Shown: positions 54,730 through 63,378 of the stretch, one piece after another
How positions within the stretch are numbered: position 1 is the first letter of the stretch
Layout: every line of letters starts with the position of its first letter
From: Pseudoalteromonas piscicida
GTDB lineage: Bacteria; Pseudomonadota; Gammaproteobacteria; Enterobacterales; Alteromonadaceae
NCBI RefSeq assembly: GCF_000238315.3
Contig: NZ_CP011924.1
Location: 2,148,501 to 2,212,500, forward strand
DNA: 64,000 nucleotides
Direction: 5' to 3'
Position numbers and translations under genes: made by a program
The notes under the pieces: model-generated
Databases searched by the model: none
What the model was told of the DNA's origin: nothing
What the model saw: the letters and a program-made list of their open reading frames with translations, nothing else

Positions 54730-54841
54730 AGTGAAACTCTTTAAATCCTATTTACTCGGCACTCTATCCGAATTTGTTGCTATTGCAAAGCGGCTTCATT
54801 ACCATCCGATCAGACTTTAAAAATATAACAAGGTGGCTACC

Positions 54842-57073
54842 GTGCACTCTCGCATTAAACACTACACCATCGCCCTTCCGTTAGCGCTTGCCTCTGTCAC
54901 CGTTAGCGCAGAGCAACTAACGCTAGAGCGACTTTTTGACGACCCGTCCCTTTCAGGTAAAGCGCCTGTAAAACTGCAATTTTCTCCTGACGGTTCTCGT
55001 GTTACTTATCTTCAAGGTAAAAAAGAAGACTATAACCGTTACGACCTTTGGGAATACAATCTAAAAGACAATACCAACCGCTTGTTGGTAGATTCTGCGG
55101 CGCTATTTTCTGGCCCAGAGAACCTCTCAGATGAAGAAAAAGCACGTCGTGAGCGTCAACGTATTTTTGGCCGTGGTATTTTAGAATACAAATGGTCAAA
55201 AGATGGCAAAGCGCTACTTTTCCCACTCAATGGCGACTTGTACTACTATGAAATCGCTTCTGGTAAGAGCAAGAAACTAACGGAAACGGAAGCATTCGAA
55301 ACCGACGCTCGCTTCTCACCAAAAGGTAACTTTGTTTCTTTTATTCGTGAGCAAAACCTCTATGCCATTGACCTTAAATCGGGTAAAGAAACGCAATTAA
55401 CTAAAGACGGCGGTGGCGTAATTAAAAACGGCATGGCTGAGTTCGTTGCTCAAGAAGAGATGAGCCGTATGACGGGCTATTGGTGGTCGGGTGATGAGCA
55501 ACAAATCGCCTTCACACGCATTGATGAAAGCCCTGTTCAAGAAGCCATTCGTAACGAAATCTATGCCGAAGAGGTCAAGTTATTCAATCAACGCTATCCA
55601 TATACGGGTACTGCTAACGTTGAAATTGAACTGGGTGTTGTAAAGATCAATGACCAAAAGGTGGATTGGATTGATTTAGGCGACGATAAAGATATCTATA
55701 TTGCCCGTGCAAATTGGTTAAAAGACAACAAAACATTGTCCTACCAGTGGCAAAATCGCTCACAGCAAAAACTGGAACTGCGCTTTTACGATACTAAAAG
55801 CAAAAAGCAGCAGGTTGCCCTGACCGAAACCAGTGATACTTGGATTAACCTACACTTTGACCTTGAATTCTTAAAGGACAAAAAGCATTTCGTTTGGGCA
55901 TCTGAGCGCGATGGCTTTAAACACCTTTACCTGTACAGAACCAATGGCCAACTTGTGCGCCAAATCACTAAAGGCGATTGGATTGTTGAAAGTCTTCAGG
56001 GCATTGATGAGAAAAAAGGTATCGTATACTTCTCCGGCCGCAAAGACACGCCGCTCGAAAGCCACCTATACAGCGTACCACTTTTTAAAGATGGCGATGC
56101 AAAACGTATTACCGAAAAAGGCAGCTATCACAGTGTTGTACTGGCAAAAGATAACCGTACCTTTATCGATAAAAGCTCTTCTGTAAACCGTCCACCAGCC
56201 GTTGCGCTACGCAAAGTGAATGGTGACTTTGTGACTTGGCTTGAAGAAAATGCGCTGAATAACGAACATCCGTTAACGCCTTATTTGAGCAATCTAGCCA
56301 CGCCAGAATATGGCACGCTTAAAGCGGAAGATGGTCAAACCATGTATTACCGCTTATTTAAGCCAGCAAAGCTTGAAACCGGTAAGAAATATCCGGTTAT
56401 TGTGAACGTGTATGGCGGACCTCATGCACAACGCGTGACCAACAGCTGGCGTAGCAAAAACTTGTATTTCCAATATCTTGCACAACAAGGTTATGTGATT
56501 TTCCAATTAGATAACCGAGGTTCATACAACCGTGGTAAAAAGTTTGAAGATCCAATCTACAAGCACTTAGGTGTAGTGGAAGTGGCTGACCAAATTAAAG
56601 GCGTTGAGTTCTTACGTACACTAGAGTACGTCGACCCTGAGCGTATCGGTATTTATGGTCACAGCTATGGTGGTTATATGGCGCTGATGACAATGTTTAA
56701 AGCAGGCGACTACTTTAAAGCTGGTGTCTCTGGTGCGCCAGTAACAGATTGGGCTCTATATGACACGCATTATACTGAGCGTTACTTAGGTCACCCAGAT
56801 ACAAATGCTAAGGGCTATGAGCAAAGCGCGGTATTCCCTTATGCTGATGGACTAAAAGGCCCGCTGATGATTTATCACGGTATGGCGGACGATAACGTAC
56901 TATTTACCCATGCAACGAAACTATTTAAGCAGTTGCAGGACGAGGTTAAGCCATTTGAAATGATGACTTATCCAGGCTCGAAGCACAGCTTACGTGGCAA
57001 AAAAGTACAAACCCACTTGCATCAAACTATTACTGACTTCTTTAATCGTCATTTTGACGTTGAAGCTAAGTAA
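54842..57073 (+). CDS. S9 family peptidase (dipeptidyl peptidase IV type)
   Basis: A 743-residue secreted or periplasmic serine peptidase that removes N-terminal dipeptides, often X-Pro. Signal peptide 1-24 (ending TVSAEQ); beta-propeller (about 45-490, many KGNFVSFIREQ-like blades); alpha/beta-hydrolase domain from about 500. The catalytic Ser608 lies in YGHSYGGYM, Asp in GMADDNVLF and His in GSKHSLRG. I use GTG 54842, preceded by AAGGTGG; an earlier GTG at 54833 lies inside that site. Fits the protein-scavenging life of marine bacteria. Confidence 0.93.
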   Translation: MHSRIKHYTIALPLALASVTVSAEQLTLERLFDDPSLSGKAPVKLQFSPDGSRVTYLQGKKEDYNRYDLWEYNLKDNTNRLLVDSAALFSGPENLSDEEKARRERQRIFGRGILEYKWSKDGKALLFPLNGDLYYYEIASGKSKKLTETEAFETDARFSPKGNFVSFIREQNLYAIDLKSGKETQLTKDGGGVIKNGMAEFVAQEEMSRMTGYWWSGDEQQIAFTRIDESPVQEAIRNEIYAEEVKLFNQRYPYTGTANVEIELGVVKINDQKVDWIDLGDDKDIYIARANWLKDNKTLSYQWQNRSQQKLELRFYDTKSKKQQVALTETSDTWINLHFDLEFLKDKKHFVWASERDGFKHLYLYRTNGQLVRQITKGDWIVESLQGIDEKKGIVYFSGRKDTPLESHLYSVPLFKDGDAKRITEKGSYHSVVLAKDNRTFIDKSSSVNRPPAVALRKVNGDFVTWLEENALNNEHPLTPYLSNLATPEYGTLKAEDGQTMYYRLFKPAKLETGKKYPVIVNVYGGPHAQRVTNSWRSKNLYFQYLAQQGYVIFQLDNRGSYNRGKKFEDPIYKHLGVVEVADQIKGVEFLRTLEYVDPERIGIYGHSYGGYMALMTMFKAGDYFKAGVSGAPVTDWALYDTHYTERYLGHPDTNAKGYEQSAVFPYADGLKGPLMIYHGMADDNVLFTHATKLFKQLQDEVKPFEMMTYPGSKHSLRGKKVQTHLHQTITDFFNRHFDVEAK

Positions 57074-57447: not shown

Positions 57448-59088
57448 ATGTCCAAACAGTTTTTTCGAAATCTCACCATTTTCCAGCGCCTCGCGTTACT
57501 TATCATTGTCGTTATTATCGGCGTTATCCTTCAAAGCGCAGTAAGCTTATCGCAACAGTATGATGCTCTCGAAAAGCAGCAATATCATAAAACTCAAAAC
57601 CTTGTTGAAAATACCTATAGTTTAGTGGCTTACTTTCATCAACAATATGTATCTGGGAAACTCCCAGAGGCGCAAGCGAAATCCGCAGCCCTTGATGCCG
57701 TTGCCGCTTTACGATACGAAGGTAATAATTACTTCTGGATCAACGACTATCATCCTAAAATGGTGATGCACCCATTTAAAAGCGAGCTCAACGGCAAAGA
57801 TCTCAGCCAATCAAAAGATCCCAGCGGCAAACGCTTATTCGTTGAAATGGTGCAAGTGGCAGAAAAAAGTGGTGCGGGATTTGTTCCCTACCTTTGGCCA
57901 AAGCCCGGTAAAGAAGCTCCTGTCGAAAAAATATCTTACGTCAAAGCGTTTACACCTTGGGGCTGGATCATCGGCTCCGGTGTGTACCTCGACACTATCG
58001 AAGCTGAGTTTGCACATATTCGAAATTTGCTATTAATAGAGATGGCGGTGCTTATTATTTTGCTATTCCCATTTAGTGCAATCATAGGTAAGAGCATCAT
58101 CACCCCCATTCAACAAGCCAAAGACATGATGAAAGATATCGCTCAAGGCGAAGGCGATTTGACTCGACAACTCGACGAAAGCGGTAAAGATGAGATAACC
58201 GCGCTTGCCAAGTACTTTAACTTATATACTGAAAAGATGCGTCATTCCATCGCGACAGTGGCCCATAACGCCAAGGAAGTGGAAACACTGGCCAATCAGG
58301 TAAAAGCGGCTGGTGAAGAGAATCTTGCATTTATTGAGTCACAAAATGACAATAGTCGCCAAGTAGCTACTGCTGCTGAACAAATGACCATGCAAGTTCG
58401 TGAGATCAGTAGCAATGCAGACACTGCAGAGCATTCCGCCGCAGACGCACGTAATTACAGTGAAAAAGGCAAACAAACTATTTCTCAAACCATCGCCGCC
58501 ATTAAAAAGCTGTCGGAGCAAATTCAATCTGTGAGCGTGACCACAACGAGCCTTGCGCAAGAGAGTCAACATATAGGATCGGTGCTCGATGTTATTCGAG
58601 GTATTGCCGAACAAACTAATTTACTTGCATTAAACGCGGCAATAGAAGCCGCTCGAGCAGGTGAACAAGGACGAGGCTTTGCTGTTGTTGCAGATGAAGT
58701 ACGCACCCTTGCAAGTCGTACAGGTCAAAGCACAGATGAAATCCACAACATGATCGAGCGACTGCAAAAAGAAGCGCAGCAGGCCGTAGCAGCAGTTAAA
58801 ATTAGCCAACAAATCTCGGAGCAAACGGTTGAACAGGTACAGCTTGCCGATAACGCATTAACCGAAATTGAGCGCCTTATTGATGCGATCTCGGATATGA
58901 GTACCCACATCGCCAAAGCCACCGACGAGCAGAGTCTTGCAGCACAAGAAGTTAATGAGCGAATAGCTCAGCTTTCTGACTCCACCCATCACTCTTTGGA
59001 TACCACACATTCACTCAACAACACCAGTGAGCAACTCACACGAGCAAGTCACGAATTGAGTGACATAGTTAATCGCTTTAGAGTATGA
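57448..59088 (+). CDS. Methyl-accepting chemotaxis protein with single Cache domain
   Basis: A 546-residue chemoreceptor. Membrane helix 1 (about 14-32), periplasmic sCache_2 domain (about 38-190, with [16 protein letters not shown] and [15 protein letters not shown]), helix 2 (about 196-216), HAMP (about 217-270) and the cytoplasmic signalling hairpin with [20 protein letters not shown] (about 391-410), the CheA/CheW contact. sCache_2 receptors often bind small carboxylates such as lactate or pyruvate; the ligand is not known. Preceded by the palindromic repeat. Confidence 0.95.
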
Positions 59089-59235: not shown

Positions 59236-60282
59236 GTGAAAATCTGTTTTATTATGTACCCTTGGGAGCGTGTAGAAGCTGAAAACGACAGCACGCTAAG
59301 ACTTATCCACGAAGCCGTATCGCGCGGTCACGTCGTTGCCATCACCACCGTAAACAACCTCACTATTCGCGAAAGTGTTGCTAGTGCCTTCTGTGATGTA
59401 TTTGTTGCGGGCCAAAAAGTATCTGACAACTTCGTGAGCTTTTACAACAAAGCTGAGTTTAAAAAAGTACAGCTTCCTTTGGCAGGTTTTGACGCAATAT
59501 TTATGCGCGCTAATCCGCCGCTTGATACCTTAGCGATGAACTTTTTAGACTCTGTTCGTGATGATACTTTCATCATCAACGACATTGATGGCCTGCGTAT
59601 CGCAAATAACAAGCTATACACGGCATCTTTCCAAGGTATTGCGAGAGAGTTTATTCCAAATACGCATGTATCTAAAAACAAAGAGTATTTAGAGCGTATA
59701 TTCTCTGAGTCAGAGCAAGAGAAAATGATCTTAAAGCCGCTTGATGGCTTTGGTGGTCGCGGTGTTATCGTCGTTGAGAAACGCGCGAAACAAAGCTTTA
59801 GCTCACTCCTTGAATTTTATATTGGTGGCGACGAGGCAGGTAAAGGCAGCAACTACGTCATTTTACAAGACTATGTTGAAGGTGCCGACGAAGGTGATGT
59901 TCGCATCCTAATGCTTAACGGTGAACCGATTGGCGCCATGAAGCGTGTGCCTGCAGCAAATGAAGTGCGTGCCAACGTACATGCCGGTGGCAAAGTGGTG
60001 AAACACAAACTCACCAACCAAGAAAAAGCGTTATGTAAGCACATCGGCCCTAAGCTTGTGCGTGATGGTTTGTATTTTGTTGGCATTGACGTGATAGGCG
60101 GCAAGCTTATCGAAGTTAACGTACTCTCGCCTGGCGGGATAACCCGTATTAACCGTTTAAACCGCTGTAAGCTGCAAGTGCAAGTTATCGATTTTGTAGA
60201 AAGTGTGGTGCACGCCAAAGAGCTAGTAACGCATCGCAAAAACCAATTCCGTCAAGTAATAGAAGATGCTCATGCTATCTGA
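59236..60282 (+). CDS. ATP-grasp ligase, glutathione synthetase-like
   Basis: A 348-residue cytoplasmic ATP-grasp enzyme related to the GshB/RimK group: it should form an amide between a carboxylate and an amino compound via an acyl phosphate. Visible elements: N-terminal pre-ATP-grasp fold (MYPWERVEAENDSTLRL), DIDGLRIANNKLYT, the ATP loop LKPLDGFGGRGV, DEGDVRILMLNGEPIGAMKR and the Mg-binding end IEVNVLSPGGI. It differs from ordinary GshB (which has VTSPTGI-like endings), and its neighbours are not glutathione genes. The GTG start at 59236 follows a 147-base gap with a terminator. It overlaps the next gene by 17 bases, so the two are co-translated. Confidence 0.85.
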   Translation: MKICFIMYPWERVEAENDSTLRLIHEAVSRGHVVAITTVNNLTIRESVASAFCDVFVAGQKVSDNFVSFYNKAEFKKVQLPLAGFDAIFMRANPPLDTLAMNFLDSVRDDTFIINDIDGLRIANNKLYTASFQGIAREFIPNTHVSKNKEYLERIFSESEQEKMILKPLDGFGGRGVIVVEKRAKQSFSSLLEFYIGGDEAGKGSNYVILQDYVEGADEGDVRILMLNGEPIGAMKRVPAANEVRANVHAGGKVVKHKLTNQEKALCKHIGPKLVRDGLYFVGIDVIGGKLIEVNVLSPGGITRINRLNRCKLQVQVIDFVESVVHAKELVTHRKNQFRQVIEDAHAI

Positions 60283-62245
60283 ACAAGCCATCATTGCCGC
60301 GCTTGAAGCCGGCAAACCCATCAGTGGACAATTTGCTGAAGGTGCTTTTCACCTTGAAGTGAGAGAATACGTGCCTTATGTCGCCACTGCTGTACACGCA
60401 GGCCACCGTACCCGGGCTAGCCTAAAAGGCTGGTTCGCCATTAGTGATGCTGAGCGTTTACAAGAGGAAGATCCGTTTACCGACGGCATGATTGAATCAT
60501 TACCCATCACGCTTATCGCGCGTGACTCACGTTACGAATACGATCTTAACCGTGCGCCAGAGCTTGCGATATACAAAGAAGCATGGGGTAAACAAGTGTG
60601 GAGCCAAGCGCTACCAAATGCAGACATAGATGTTAGCTTGTCAAAGCATGCAGCCTATTACCGTGTGCTCAGTGCGCTGTTAACCACGCTTGAGCGTAAG
60701 TTTGGTGCCTGCTTGCTATTTGATGTGCACAGCTATAACTATCAAATTCGTAGCTACCCTTATGCACCAACCTTTAATATTGGCACTGCACAACTTGATA
60801 CCTTGCGTTTTCGCGCCGTATTAGATGAGCTGAAAAAGCAGCTAGGACTGAAAAAACTGGCAGGCCAGCTGGTGGATTGTGCAGAAAATACCGTCTTTCA
60901 GGGCCATGGTTATCAAGCGCAATATATTACCAGCCACTTTGATAACACCTTAGTGGTACCGCTGGAAGTGAAAAAAGTCTTTATGGACGAAAACAGTGGT
61001 GAATTGTTCCCTGTGGTGTTTGAAAAACTACAGCGCAACATGCATGTTGCTTTGAGTAAAACGGCAAAAACATTTGCTAAAAATCACTGCTATAAGCCAC
61101 TTCGCAAAGCAAAATCCACGTCGCAGCTTGACCCTGCGCTGATCAACGTGGACTCTGCGCTATACCGCATAGCCAGAAACCTTGAAACGCTGCATTACGT
61201 TAACCCAAGTAATATCGCACAAGAGAAACGTCGCTTTTTCTCGAAACGTCATTATCAGCCTGCGTTTAAATATCGCCCGCTGAAAATTGACCCGTATGAG
61301 TTCAAAGAGCAACTCTATCGCTTGCCCGTTGGAAAAATCCAAGATCCGATCGTAAAAGATTTATATCGTAAAGTGATCGACAGCTACGCCACAAAAATCG
61401 AACTGATCACCCAAATTGGTCGCGAAGCCTTTTTGTATAACTCGCTACGCTATTATGGTGAGCCGGATTACAACGATATAAATAATGCGACCTTCTTGCT
61501 GCACGCGCGCGAAACCGAAACCTTGCCAAAAAAAGACATTACAGCCGAGCAGGCCCTAGTACGTTTTAATCAAGCGATTGAGACCATGGGCTTACCTTGT
61601 AAGGTCGCCATATCAAGCAAACTTGTTGCCAAAGCAATGGTCGACAATAGTAAACGTCTTCTGCTTGTAAATAGCAGTGCGATGCTATCTGAGCTTGATA
61701 TCAATGCCTTGATAGAGCATGAAATTGGCGTGCACTTACTCACGACCTTAAATGCTGACGCTCAGCAACTTAAAGTGCTGCACTTAGGTTTACCTGGCAA
61801 CACCTACACCCAAGAAGGCCTTGCCATCTATCGCGAGTATCAATCTGGGCAAATAAATCTGACACGATTAAAAGTATTAGCGCTTAGGGTGATTGCGGTT
61901 AACATGCTGCTTAAAGGCGATAAATTCTATCAAGTGTATGAGTTTTTAGCTGACTCGGGTGTATTAAATGTCAATGAAGCCTTTGCGCTGACCACGCGAA
62001 TTTTCCGTGGTGGTGGCTTTACTAAAGATCATCTCTACTTAAAAGGCTTTAAAGACATAGTGCAGCTTGCCAATACTCGCAGCTTAGATAATTTATATCT
62101 CGGTAAAACGGGCATTGCGCACTTAGATGCGCTGGACGCGTTAGTAGAGCAAGGTATATTCACGAGGCCTAAATATCTGCCGGATACGAGCCGAGATCCT
62201 AAGCCTGATGCAATCCTAAGTTATTTAATTTCTTCAATTAAATAG
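60266..62245 (+). CDS. Fusion of N-formylglutamate amidohydrolase-like domain and DUF1704 (QEGLA) metallopeptidase domain
   Basis: A 659-residue two-domain protein. Residues 1 to about 275 match N-formylglutamate amidohydrolases (M14-like zinc hydrolases): VHAGHRTR, EEDPFTDGM, DSRYEYDLNRAPE and FDVHSYNY. From about 290 to the end is the DUF1704 domain, often named 'flavohemoglobin expression-modulating QEGLA motif protein'. Its zinc-peptidase site is visible as H485-E-x-x-x-H490 (EHEIGVHLL) and the QEGLA Glu517. Eukaryotic DUF1704 proteins (MATCAP) are tubulin tyrosine carboxypeptidases, so a carboxypeptidase role is inferred. Start ATG 60266 (a second ATG at 60272 is possible) overlaps the ATP-grasp gene. 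Confidence 0.88.
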   Translation: MLMLSEQAIIAALEAGKPISGQFAEGAFHLEVREYVPYVATAVHAGHRTRASLKGWFAISDAERLQEEDPFTDGMIESLPITLIARDSRYEYDLNRAPELAIYKEAWGKQVWSQALPNADIDVSLSKHAAYYRVLSALLTTLERKFGACLLFDVHSYNYQIRSYPYAPTFNIGTAQLDTLRFRAVLDELKKQLGLKKLAGQLVDCAENTVFQGHGYQAQYITSHFDNTLVVPLEVKKVFMDENSGELFPVVFEKLQRNMHVALSKTAKTFAKNHCYKPLRKAKSTSQLDPALINVDSALYRIARNLETLHYVNPSNIAQEKRRFFSKRHYQPAFKYRPLKIDPYEFKEQLYRLPVGKIQDPIVKDLYRKVIDSYATKIELITQIGREAFLYNSLRYYGEPDYNDINNATFLLHARETETLPKKDITAEQALVRFNQAIETMGLPCKVAISSKLVAKAMVDNSKRLLLVNSSAMLSELDINALIEHEIGVHLLTTLNADAQQLKVLHLGLPGNTYTQEGLAIYREYQSGQINLTRLKVLALRVIAVNMLLKGDKFYQVYEFLADSGVLNVNEAFALTTRIFRGGGFTKDHLYLKGFKDIVQLANTRSLDNLYLGKTGIAHLDALDALVEQGIFTRPKYLPDTSRDPKPDAILSYLISSIK

Positions 62246-62304
62246 GCCAAATTCGCCACTGTGGTTATACTAGTGCCATCTAGTATCTACCCAGTGGCTT
62301 TGTT

Positions 62305-63090
62305 TTGACACAACAGGAAATAGATTTACTCGCTTTTGAGCTGGCAAACCTTCGTCTCAAAGCCGATCTTACACTTGCACCGAAGTACAGTTACTTTTCA
62401 GATAAACCCTACCCGCTTGGTCGCTGCCTAGAAATTCGCGATGAAATGTTTAAACTCGTCACCACAGAGCTCAAGCAAAATTCAGAACGTTTATCTGTGC
62501 TCAGAAATTACATGCTTAAAGAAAGTGCCGAGCTCAAAAAAGTATGGGGTTCGCTACGCGATGAGTACTTTCAAAATGCGATGTTGGTGGGAGATTGGTA
62601 TATAGATACCGCAAACGATACGGTCAATGCAAACAAACCCAGAGTTGAAATCAAACCCATCGCACAATCAGGCTTTTCCACCATCACTAATTTCGAGCAG
62701 TTTGTGAAGATTGCTCGCGCTTACTGGCAAGTGGAGGTGTTTAAAAACACCGCCTTTCCAGCCATCGCGCCTTATCTACCGTTAATTTGTGTCAATGCAA
62801 CAGGCGCTACTTGGTTAGCTGCGGCCAATGACGATATGATCAAGGTCGCTACCAACAGTGAGTTTAGGTTATCTGAGCAAATCCTCTGTCAGCTGCCAGA
62901 GCCTGACACTAACCTAGTATCTCGCTGGCAGCAGACCCTAACTGGCGTCGATGCTTTAGATGACATCTTATTGCAAACAGGAAAGCCCGAGGGGTTTTGC
63001 CAACTATACAGAGCTGCCGAAAAAGCAGCGGATTTAGCATTTAGAGATAGAGTCGTACGCGCCTATATGAGCTTACCCAAAGGCGCGTAG
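62305..63090 (+). CDS. Unknown cytoplasmic protein, third gene of the ATP-grasp/DUF1704 cluster
   Basis: A 261-residue soluble protein with no signal peptide or membrane helix. The N-terminal half is helical and charged (LAFELANLRLKADLTLAPK; LRNYMLKESAELKKVWGSLR); the middle has a conserved-looking WQVEVFKNTAFPAIAPYLPL. I do not recognise the family. It starts with TTG at 62305 (no ATG until codon 38) and is 59 bases after the DUF1704 gene on the same strand with no terminator visible, so it is probably co-transcribed. The role could be substrate or regulator; unknown. Confidence 0.65.
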   Translation: MTQQEIDLLAFELANLRLKADLTLAPKYSYFSDKPYPLGRCLEIRDEMFKLVTTELKQNSERLSVLRNYMLKESAELKKVWGSLRDEYFQNAMLVGDWYIDTANDTVNANKPRVEIKPIAQSGFSTITNFEQFVKIARAYWQVEVFKNTAFPAIAPYLPLICVNATGATWLAAANDDMIKVATNSEFRLSEQILCQLPEPDTNLVSRWQQTLTGVDALDDILLQTGKPEGFCQLYRAAEKAADLAFRDRVVRAYMSLPKGA

Positions 63091-63099
63091 CGTAGTGAA

Positions 63100-63378
63100 T
63101 TAGAAAGAAGCGGGATAAGTCGGTTTTTCGTCCGTAATTTCCCATTTATCTTCTGTTGGTCTATCCACTCGACATTGATTTTGCTGTTGGAAACACCTGT
63201 CCTCACAGTTTTGTACTTGCATCGGATCTGAGTAATCTTTGCGACAGCTCATAGAACACGAACGTGAATCACCTTCGCAATCGACCGGCACATTGCTGAC
63301 TCTAGTTGTAAAATGTCCACTACAGCCACTCACAAACACAGCGGCGAACACTGCTGCTACCCATAATTTTGTTGTCAT
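63100..63378 (-). CDS. Cys-rich small lipoprotein, unknown function
   Basis: A 92-residue predicted lipoprotein with a signal peptide and lipobox VSGC (Cys 19). The mature part has six more Cys in about 40 residues ([31 protein letters not shown]), probably disulfide-bonded in the periplasm. Family not recognised. The start overlaps the yaaA stop by four bases, so it is likely co-transcribed with yaaA. It converges with the ATP-grasp/DUF1704 cluster. Confidence 0.75.

Follow-up and report, generated by a model that had tools for sequence, protein, structure and literature searches.

Two overlapping genes for an ATP-grasp ligase and a two-domain hydrolase

We analyzed a pair of overlapping genes in a 64,000-nucleotide stretch of the Pseudoalteromonas piscicida genome (contig NZ_CP011924.1, positions 2,148,501 to 2,212,500), hereafter called the window. 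The first gene (59236..60282, plus strand, GTG start) encodes an ATP-grasp ligase of the GshB type, PRK12458 subfamily, with 348 amino acids (aa). The second gene (60266..62245, plus strand, ATG start) encodes a 659-aa fusion protein consisting of an N-formylglutamate amidohydrolase (FGase) domain (Pfam residues 37–235; 60374..60970) and a MATCAP/DUF1704 domain (residues 324–653; 61235..62224). The two genes overlap by 17 bases (60266..60282). A third gene on the same strand (62305..63090, TTG start, 261 aa), belonging to a family without assignment, starts 59 bases after the fusion gene and is treated here as a neighbor outside the module. The three open reading frames, their overlap and gap, and the ATP-grasp and amidohydrolase-DUF1704 identities had been described in an earlier note, and coordinates and Pfam and NCBIfam searches confirmed them. 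Four named Pseudoalteromonas records contain copies of the fusion protein with 96–100% identity.

Conservation of the pair and its two gene orders

Using the fusion protein as the query, we collected 29 named loci. The ligase gene adjoined the fusion gene in 28 of them, in Pseudoalteromonas, Shewanella, Colwellia, Photobacterium, Vibrio, Neptuniibacter, Fangia, other genera, and one Bacteroidota bin, so that the pair spans at least two phyla (Pseudomonadota and that of the bin). The exception (L034) matched the FGase part only (residues 1–270) and had no adjoining ligase. A cyanobacterial relative of the fusion (51% identity) is known as a protein alone.

Co-occurrence was also evaluated in 274 genomes of the class, sampled independently, in which matches of 350 bits or more were assigned to the ligase type. 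MATCAP was present in 39 genomes (broken in G027) and the ligase type in 14; the ligase adjoined MATCAP in 12 of these 14. The earlier note had stated that a lack of conserved co-occurrence of the ligase with DUF1704 would refute its proposal; the pairing holds in both collections. Across the phylum, TIGR02421 matches were detected in 47 of 398 genomes, and the regions of 14 of the 47 were inspected.

The pair was arranged in two gene orders. In type A, as in P. piscicida, the ligase gene precedes the fusion gene; the two overlapped by 8–98 bases (nominal starts) in 34 of 35 loci and were separated by a 2-base gap in the remaining one. In type B, a separate FGase gene is followed by a gene for a MATCAP of about 630 aa with an extra N-terminal region and then by the ligase gene, with a MATCAP-ligase spacing of −71 to +25 bases (12 loci). 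A six-frame scan of 15 type B loci detected the FGase frame (272–363 bits) and the ligase in 14 loci each. Both were missing at L107, and the FGase was located more than 1 kb from MATCAP at L106 and L111. The MATCAP gene of L107 (5158-8110) comes directly after an AstE_AspA-type deacylase gene, and histidine-kinase genes precede.

As a control, 24 MATCAP genomes were chosen, with types assigned partly by reading-frame length and with regions fetched for some of them. All eight genomes with the long fusion had a ligase above the cut-off, adjoining MATCAP by coordinates. The ligase score was 240 bits or lower in four genomes with a short MATCAP (~390 aa), in 11 genomes with a MATCAP of another branch (described below), and in G105, which has a fusion but no ligase. 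Another GshB-like match (177–238 bits) was found in each of the 24 genomes, including the eight ligase carriers. Ligase presence tracked the FGase fusion, not MATCAP alone. Ligase and MATCAP distances were correlated in type A (Mantel r 0.735, 23 pairs, 0 of 2000 permutations as high) and in type B (r 0.55, 12 pairs, 5 of 2000 as high), correlations to which shared species history contributes. One Pseudoalteromonas assembly (L014:8001-9815) carries the fusion gene as two reading frames (68 + 484 aa), owing either to gene decay or to a fault in sequencing.

The ATP-grasp ligase

The ligase matched the Pfam families GSH-S_ATP (192.5 bits) and GSH-S_N (85 bits). The best NCBIfam family was PRK12458 (NF009110; 473 bits against a cut-off of 408). 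The scores were below the cut-offs of the glutathione synthase model TIGR01380 (249.3 vs 299.05) and the RimK family model TIGR00768 (78.3 vs 143.4 bits). GshB was the top similarity in both sequence and fold, and a second, separate GshB (447 bits) is encoded in the same genome. TTL, the writer of the tubulin detyrosination cycle, is also an ATP-grasp ligase; no TTL chain was among the 50 matches listed by a fold search of the ligase. The nearest analogues are GshB and RimK, and TTL is a functional parallel only.

Residues 299–301 of the ligase are PGG (60130..60138, plus strand). P, G, and G occupied these positions in 49 of 49 ligases from both gene orders (near-identical copies counted); the corresponding residues are PTC in the separate GshB of this organism and in E. 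coli 1gsa (1gsa alignment). The PGG motif may affect acceptor choice.

Two loci differed in their ligase content. At L075:1-9000 (G163), the MATCAP and FGase genes are accompanied by two tandem PRK12458-type ligases (452.6 and 356.1 bits), a doubling that points to two distinct amino acids being joined or to two distinct acceptors. At L064:8020-12991 (G210), a PRK12458-type ligase without MATCAP is part of a gene row that also contains a transporter-like gene and genes for a small membrane protein, a RimK-like ligase, and an AstE/AspA-like protein (names assigned by eye).

The MATCAP half of the fusion protein

Residues 324–653 matched the MATCAP/DUF1704 family PF08014 with 328 bits (cut-off 27). 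The fusion protein also exceeded the cut-off of TIGR02421 (382 vs 338.65 bits), labeled "flavohemoglobin expression-modulating QEGLA motif protein", a name that gives no chemistry, as the earlier note had remarked. An HExxxH motif (HEIGVH, residues 485–490; 61718..61735) and a QEG motif (residues 516–518; 61811..61819), in which E517 is the predicted third metal ligand, are encoded on the plus strand. H485, E486, H490, and QEG were invariant in 66 sequences; HEIGVH aligned with HEIGTH, and QEG with EEG, of human KIAA0895L. The MATCAP half is predicted to have carboxypeptidase activity.

A tree of 71 MATCAP domains, from which ten near-duplicates among the named loci and a number of short pieces were omitted, split off 26 domains of another branch with full support (100/100). 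Within TIGR02421, the ligase-linked members lie on one side of this branch, together with the short ones, and the other-branch MATCAPs lie opposite. Three MATCAPs of about 380–394 aa without an adjoining FGase or ligase (L096:6498-7679, L097:5997-7151, and L101) were nested among the ligase-type members. At L084:5948-8601 and L085:3058-6824, other-branch MATCAPs have RimK-like genes and genes of the RimB family as neighbors, a hint that glutamate tailing may also involve this branch.

We compared both branches with human MATCAP. The profile of the ligase-linked branch scored 40.9 and 20.1 bits against two human segments, and that of the other bacterial branch 22.6 and −2.2 bits. On the bacterial tree, human MATCAP was placed on a long branch with a support of 18/51, and a tree holding the 45 ligase-type rows together without it was not rejected (p-AU 0.31). 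The profile scores alone lean to the ligase-linked branch; the placement on the tree is weak.

The FGase half of the fusion protein

Residues 37–235 matched the FGase family PF05013 (72.6 bits), and the domain score, the fold, and conserved putative metal-site residues all agreed with membership of this family. The score for the N-formylglutamate deformylase (HutG) equivalog TIGR02017 was far below the cut-off (12.3 vs 278.75 bits). The AlphaFold2 model of the fusion had a mean pLDDT of 91.9 and a pTM of 0.81. The FGase half resembles carboxypeptidases and poly-gamma-Glu hydrolases and is M14/aspartoacylase-like. Nine residues (H44, E68, D93, N95, R96, D153, H155, N158, and K237 just past the domain) were each kept in 34–37 of 37 type A domains and in 10–11 of 11 separate FGases, one of which is the L034 piece. 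The putative active site is retained.

The extra N-terminal region of the type B MATCAP was found to be a decayed FGase (hhalign 97%, E 8e-11, 237 columns, 14 sequences). H44 was never His in the 14 decayed domains, and H155 was replaced by Trp in 13 and by Asp in one. Because FGase and MATCAP stay joined although the fused FGase lost the conserved residues and the separate copy kept them, the two domains may form a working complex. The FGase half, with its putative active site kept and its fusion tracked by the ligase, was underplayed in the earlier reading of this locus.

The third gene and other neighbors

The third protein had no Pfam match at E 0.1 and no NCBIfam match exceeding the cut-off. 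Its gene was located beside the pair, on the same strand and downstream, at nine named Pseudoalteromonas loci and in the P. piscicida window, and at none of the other 20 named loci. The family has at least 95 relatives, several of them in other genera. Among 148 genomes of the order, it was present in three, two of which are outside the 28 with MATCAP. The C terminus, which the earlier note had suggested checking for conservation, was variable in 33 sequences. Thus, the third protein was rejected as the substrate or adaptor that the earlier note had proposed. None of the three proteins matched a known defense system in PADLOC (E 0.01).

A DPP-IV-type S9 peptidase and a Cache-domain chemotaxis receptor are encoded upstream of the module (54833-57073 and 57448-59088); Pseudoalteromonas rubra-like loci have different genes at this place. 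A 92-aa protein with a lipoprotein-like start, several cysteines, and no Pfam family is encoded on the opposite strand at 63100-63378. Its cluster is present in nine loci, with the P. piscicida window counted in.

Genomic setting and osmolarity

HdfR-like LysR regulator genes (>200 bits) were detected in 16 of 48 ligase-MATCAP loci and in 0 of 29 MATCAP-alone loci, using a profile built from seven genes of the same loci, the lengths of which differ. hdfR and maoP are commonly neighbors in this class. A RimB/RloA-family peptidase gene was located within 2 kb of MATCAP in five of 80 MATCAP genomes (G355, G375, and G434 of one genus, G152, and G029), and 60 of the 80 have the family. At L108:1765-8910 (G355), genes like rloA, rloB, and rloC come after the FGase, MATCAP, and ligase genes on the same strand, and an HdfR-like regulator gene is divergent. 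The array has six genes and unites two ATP-grasp systems; matches to the RloA and RloB models stayed below the cut-offs, whereas the match to the RloC-type model TIGR02291 exceeded its own.

The Rlo operon of P. aeruginosa encodes the retropepsin RloA, the membrane protein RloB, and the ATP-grasp protein RloC. It controls hypo-osmotic tolerance, according to PMC12239564. In PMC10308900, a comparison of Photobacterium damselae in 1% and 3% NaCl lists a "GshB" (RS17020) as upregulated 38.4-fold and a QEGLA protein (RS17025) as upregulated 27.5-fold at 1%, among 1,808 changed genes in all. RS17020 and RS17025 are evidently the ligase-fusion pair, because they carry consecutive tags and because the fusion relatives include a 660-aa protein from P. 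damselae (P0112).

Discussion

We established the pairing of the two genes, their domain identities, retained motifs, and folds, the two gene orders, and one MATCAP branch holding the ligase-linked members. We give close to an even chance to the reading that the two genes form an add-and-trim module acting on the C-terminal tail of a peptide or protein. The ligase would activate a C-terminal carboxylate as an acyl phosphate and join an amino acid to it, the acceptor being a peptide or protein C terminus. The two separate metallo-hydrolase domains of the fusion, FGase and HExxxH MATCAP, would remove or trim the same kind of tail, which is probably glutamate-rich. By analogy, chain shortening would fall to MATCAP, and the M14-like FGase would take off what MATCAP is unable to remove. 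Both products start without an obvious signal peptide (by eye). The C-terminal chemistry would involve a shared substrate, probably in the cytosol, and may serve adaptation to low osmolarity.

Several observations weigh against this reading. Two ligase genomes (G210 and G192) had no MATCAP match, and G105 has an intact fusion without the ligase. No small gene for a common substrate was found beside the pair in all lineages, based on crude gene calls in which genes of less than 60 aa are unlisted. A DUF413 (MaoP-like) gene encoding an acidic C terminus is located upstream of the ligase at several loci, but it was rejected as the tailed substrate: the P. piscicida genome had no match, and the tails were equally acidic without the module (30 proteins). 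The proximity of RimB/RloA to MATCAP is limited to three lineages, and 75 of the 80 genomes lack it. The adjacency of RS17020 and RS17025 is deduced from consecutive tags alone. The NCBIfam label of the ligase family is "glutathione synthetase", and the ligase exceeded the cut-off of the glutathione synthase model PRK05246 (285.2 vs 272). The module is predicted from sequence and models, and no substrate was found.

The PRK05246 score bears on a different explanation, which we consider possible but on balance doubtful: the product may be a soluble glutathione-like peptide. The ligase would add an amino acid onto a small gamma-glutamyl dipeptide or a comparable acid; the resulting non-protein thiol, osmolyte, or storage compound would be broken down for recycling by FGase and MATCAP, for example after an osmotic downshift. 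The closeness of the ligase to GshB in sequence and fold fits this explanation, FGase family enzymes by name work on small N-acyl-glutamates, and the low-salt induction of the evident Photobacterium pair is consistent with solute degradation. However, the ligase missed the TIGR01380 cut-off, and all 49 ligases have GG in place of the TC of GshB. The separate 447-bit GshB, like the other GshB-like match in all 24 control genomes, also argues against it and weakens the view, named in the earlier note as one that would undo its proposal, that the ligase simply makes glutathione; the PRK05246 score keeps part of that view standing. Moreover, protein tails are the target of human MATCAP, according to PMC10499314.

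A carrier pathway of the LysX-LysW kind, in which an amino acid is loaded on the C-terminal Glu of a carrier, modified while bound, and released by a carboxypeptidase, is quite improbable, as no small acidic carrier gene or modifying enzymes common to the lineages were found beside the pair (with the same gene calls). A three-gene cycle with the third protein as substrate or adaptor would fit its same-strand position 59 bases downstream at all nine named Pseudoalteromonas loci and in the window; its absence from the other 20 named loci, its rarity in the order, including two genomes outside those with MATCAP, and its variable C termini make such a cycle extremely unlikely. Plain adjacency of the genes without functional coupling would account for the fusion without a ligase and the two ligases without MATCAP, but the two opposite tight gene orders, the correlated divergence, to which shared ancestry contributes, and the joint presence or absence leave it hardly any probability.

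The add-and-trim module can be compared with known systems. RimK and RimB of Pseudomonas poly-glutamylate the ribosomal protein RpsF and then remove the tail. In contrast to the retropepsin RimB, the erasers here are two metallo-hydrolase domains, and the ligase is under the RimK cut-off (78 vs 143 bits). Separately from the module, the P. piscicida genome carries a RimK gene with a RimB-family gene next to it. The module shares with Rlo an ATP-grasp protein with a peptidase and an osmotic connection, and an rloABC-like set directly follows it in L108, but the ligase and peptidase families differ. RloA is predicted to be secreted (PMC12239564), whereas the products here show no obvious signal peptide by eye. 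Compared with GshB, the ligase has PGG instead of PTC, is encoded in addition to a true GshB, and is coupled to two hydrolases. The earlier note had likened the pair to TTL and MATCAP as writer and eraser. The conserved pairing and the aligned HExxxH and E motifs sustain an ATP-grasp writer with a MATCAP-fold eraser. The ligase is of the GshB type, however, the MATCAP carries an FGase domain, and action on a C terminus is what we infer. The likeness is so far a functional parallel only.

A bolder reading can be stated, which we consider unlikely as a whole. The pair would be a bacterial counterpart of the tubulin-tail code, with a cytosolic ATP-grasp ligase as the writer and a fused pair of metallocarboxypeptidases as the eraser of protein tails: MATCAP would trim the chain, and the M14-like FGase would clear a terminal or branching residue. 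A drop in osmolarity would switch the cycle, and the eukaryotic enzyme would derive from the ligase-linked MATCAP branch.

Writer-eraser pairs of an ATP-grasp ligase and a peptidase are already known from RimK/RimB and TTL/MATCAP; the different ligase subfamily, the MATCAP eraser, and the fused FGase are new here. A literature search, mostly by title, found no paper treating the pair as a system, and none on the role of bacterial MATCAP relatives; Iyer et al. 2009, reportedly a survey of ATP-grasp gene neighborhoods, may already mention the pair. MATCAP-type action on tubulin was shown only in recent years. The conserved pairing with a ligase, the presence of FGase in two copies, of which one is intact and the other decayed, and the strong low-salt induction of the evident Photobacterium pair make a role of bacterial MATCAP concretely testable. 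If the target is a protein, bacteria would have in this module a further means of writing and erasing protein tails, and part of the tubulin code may be rooted in it.

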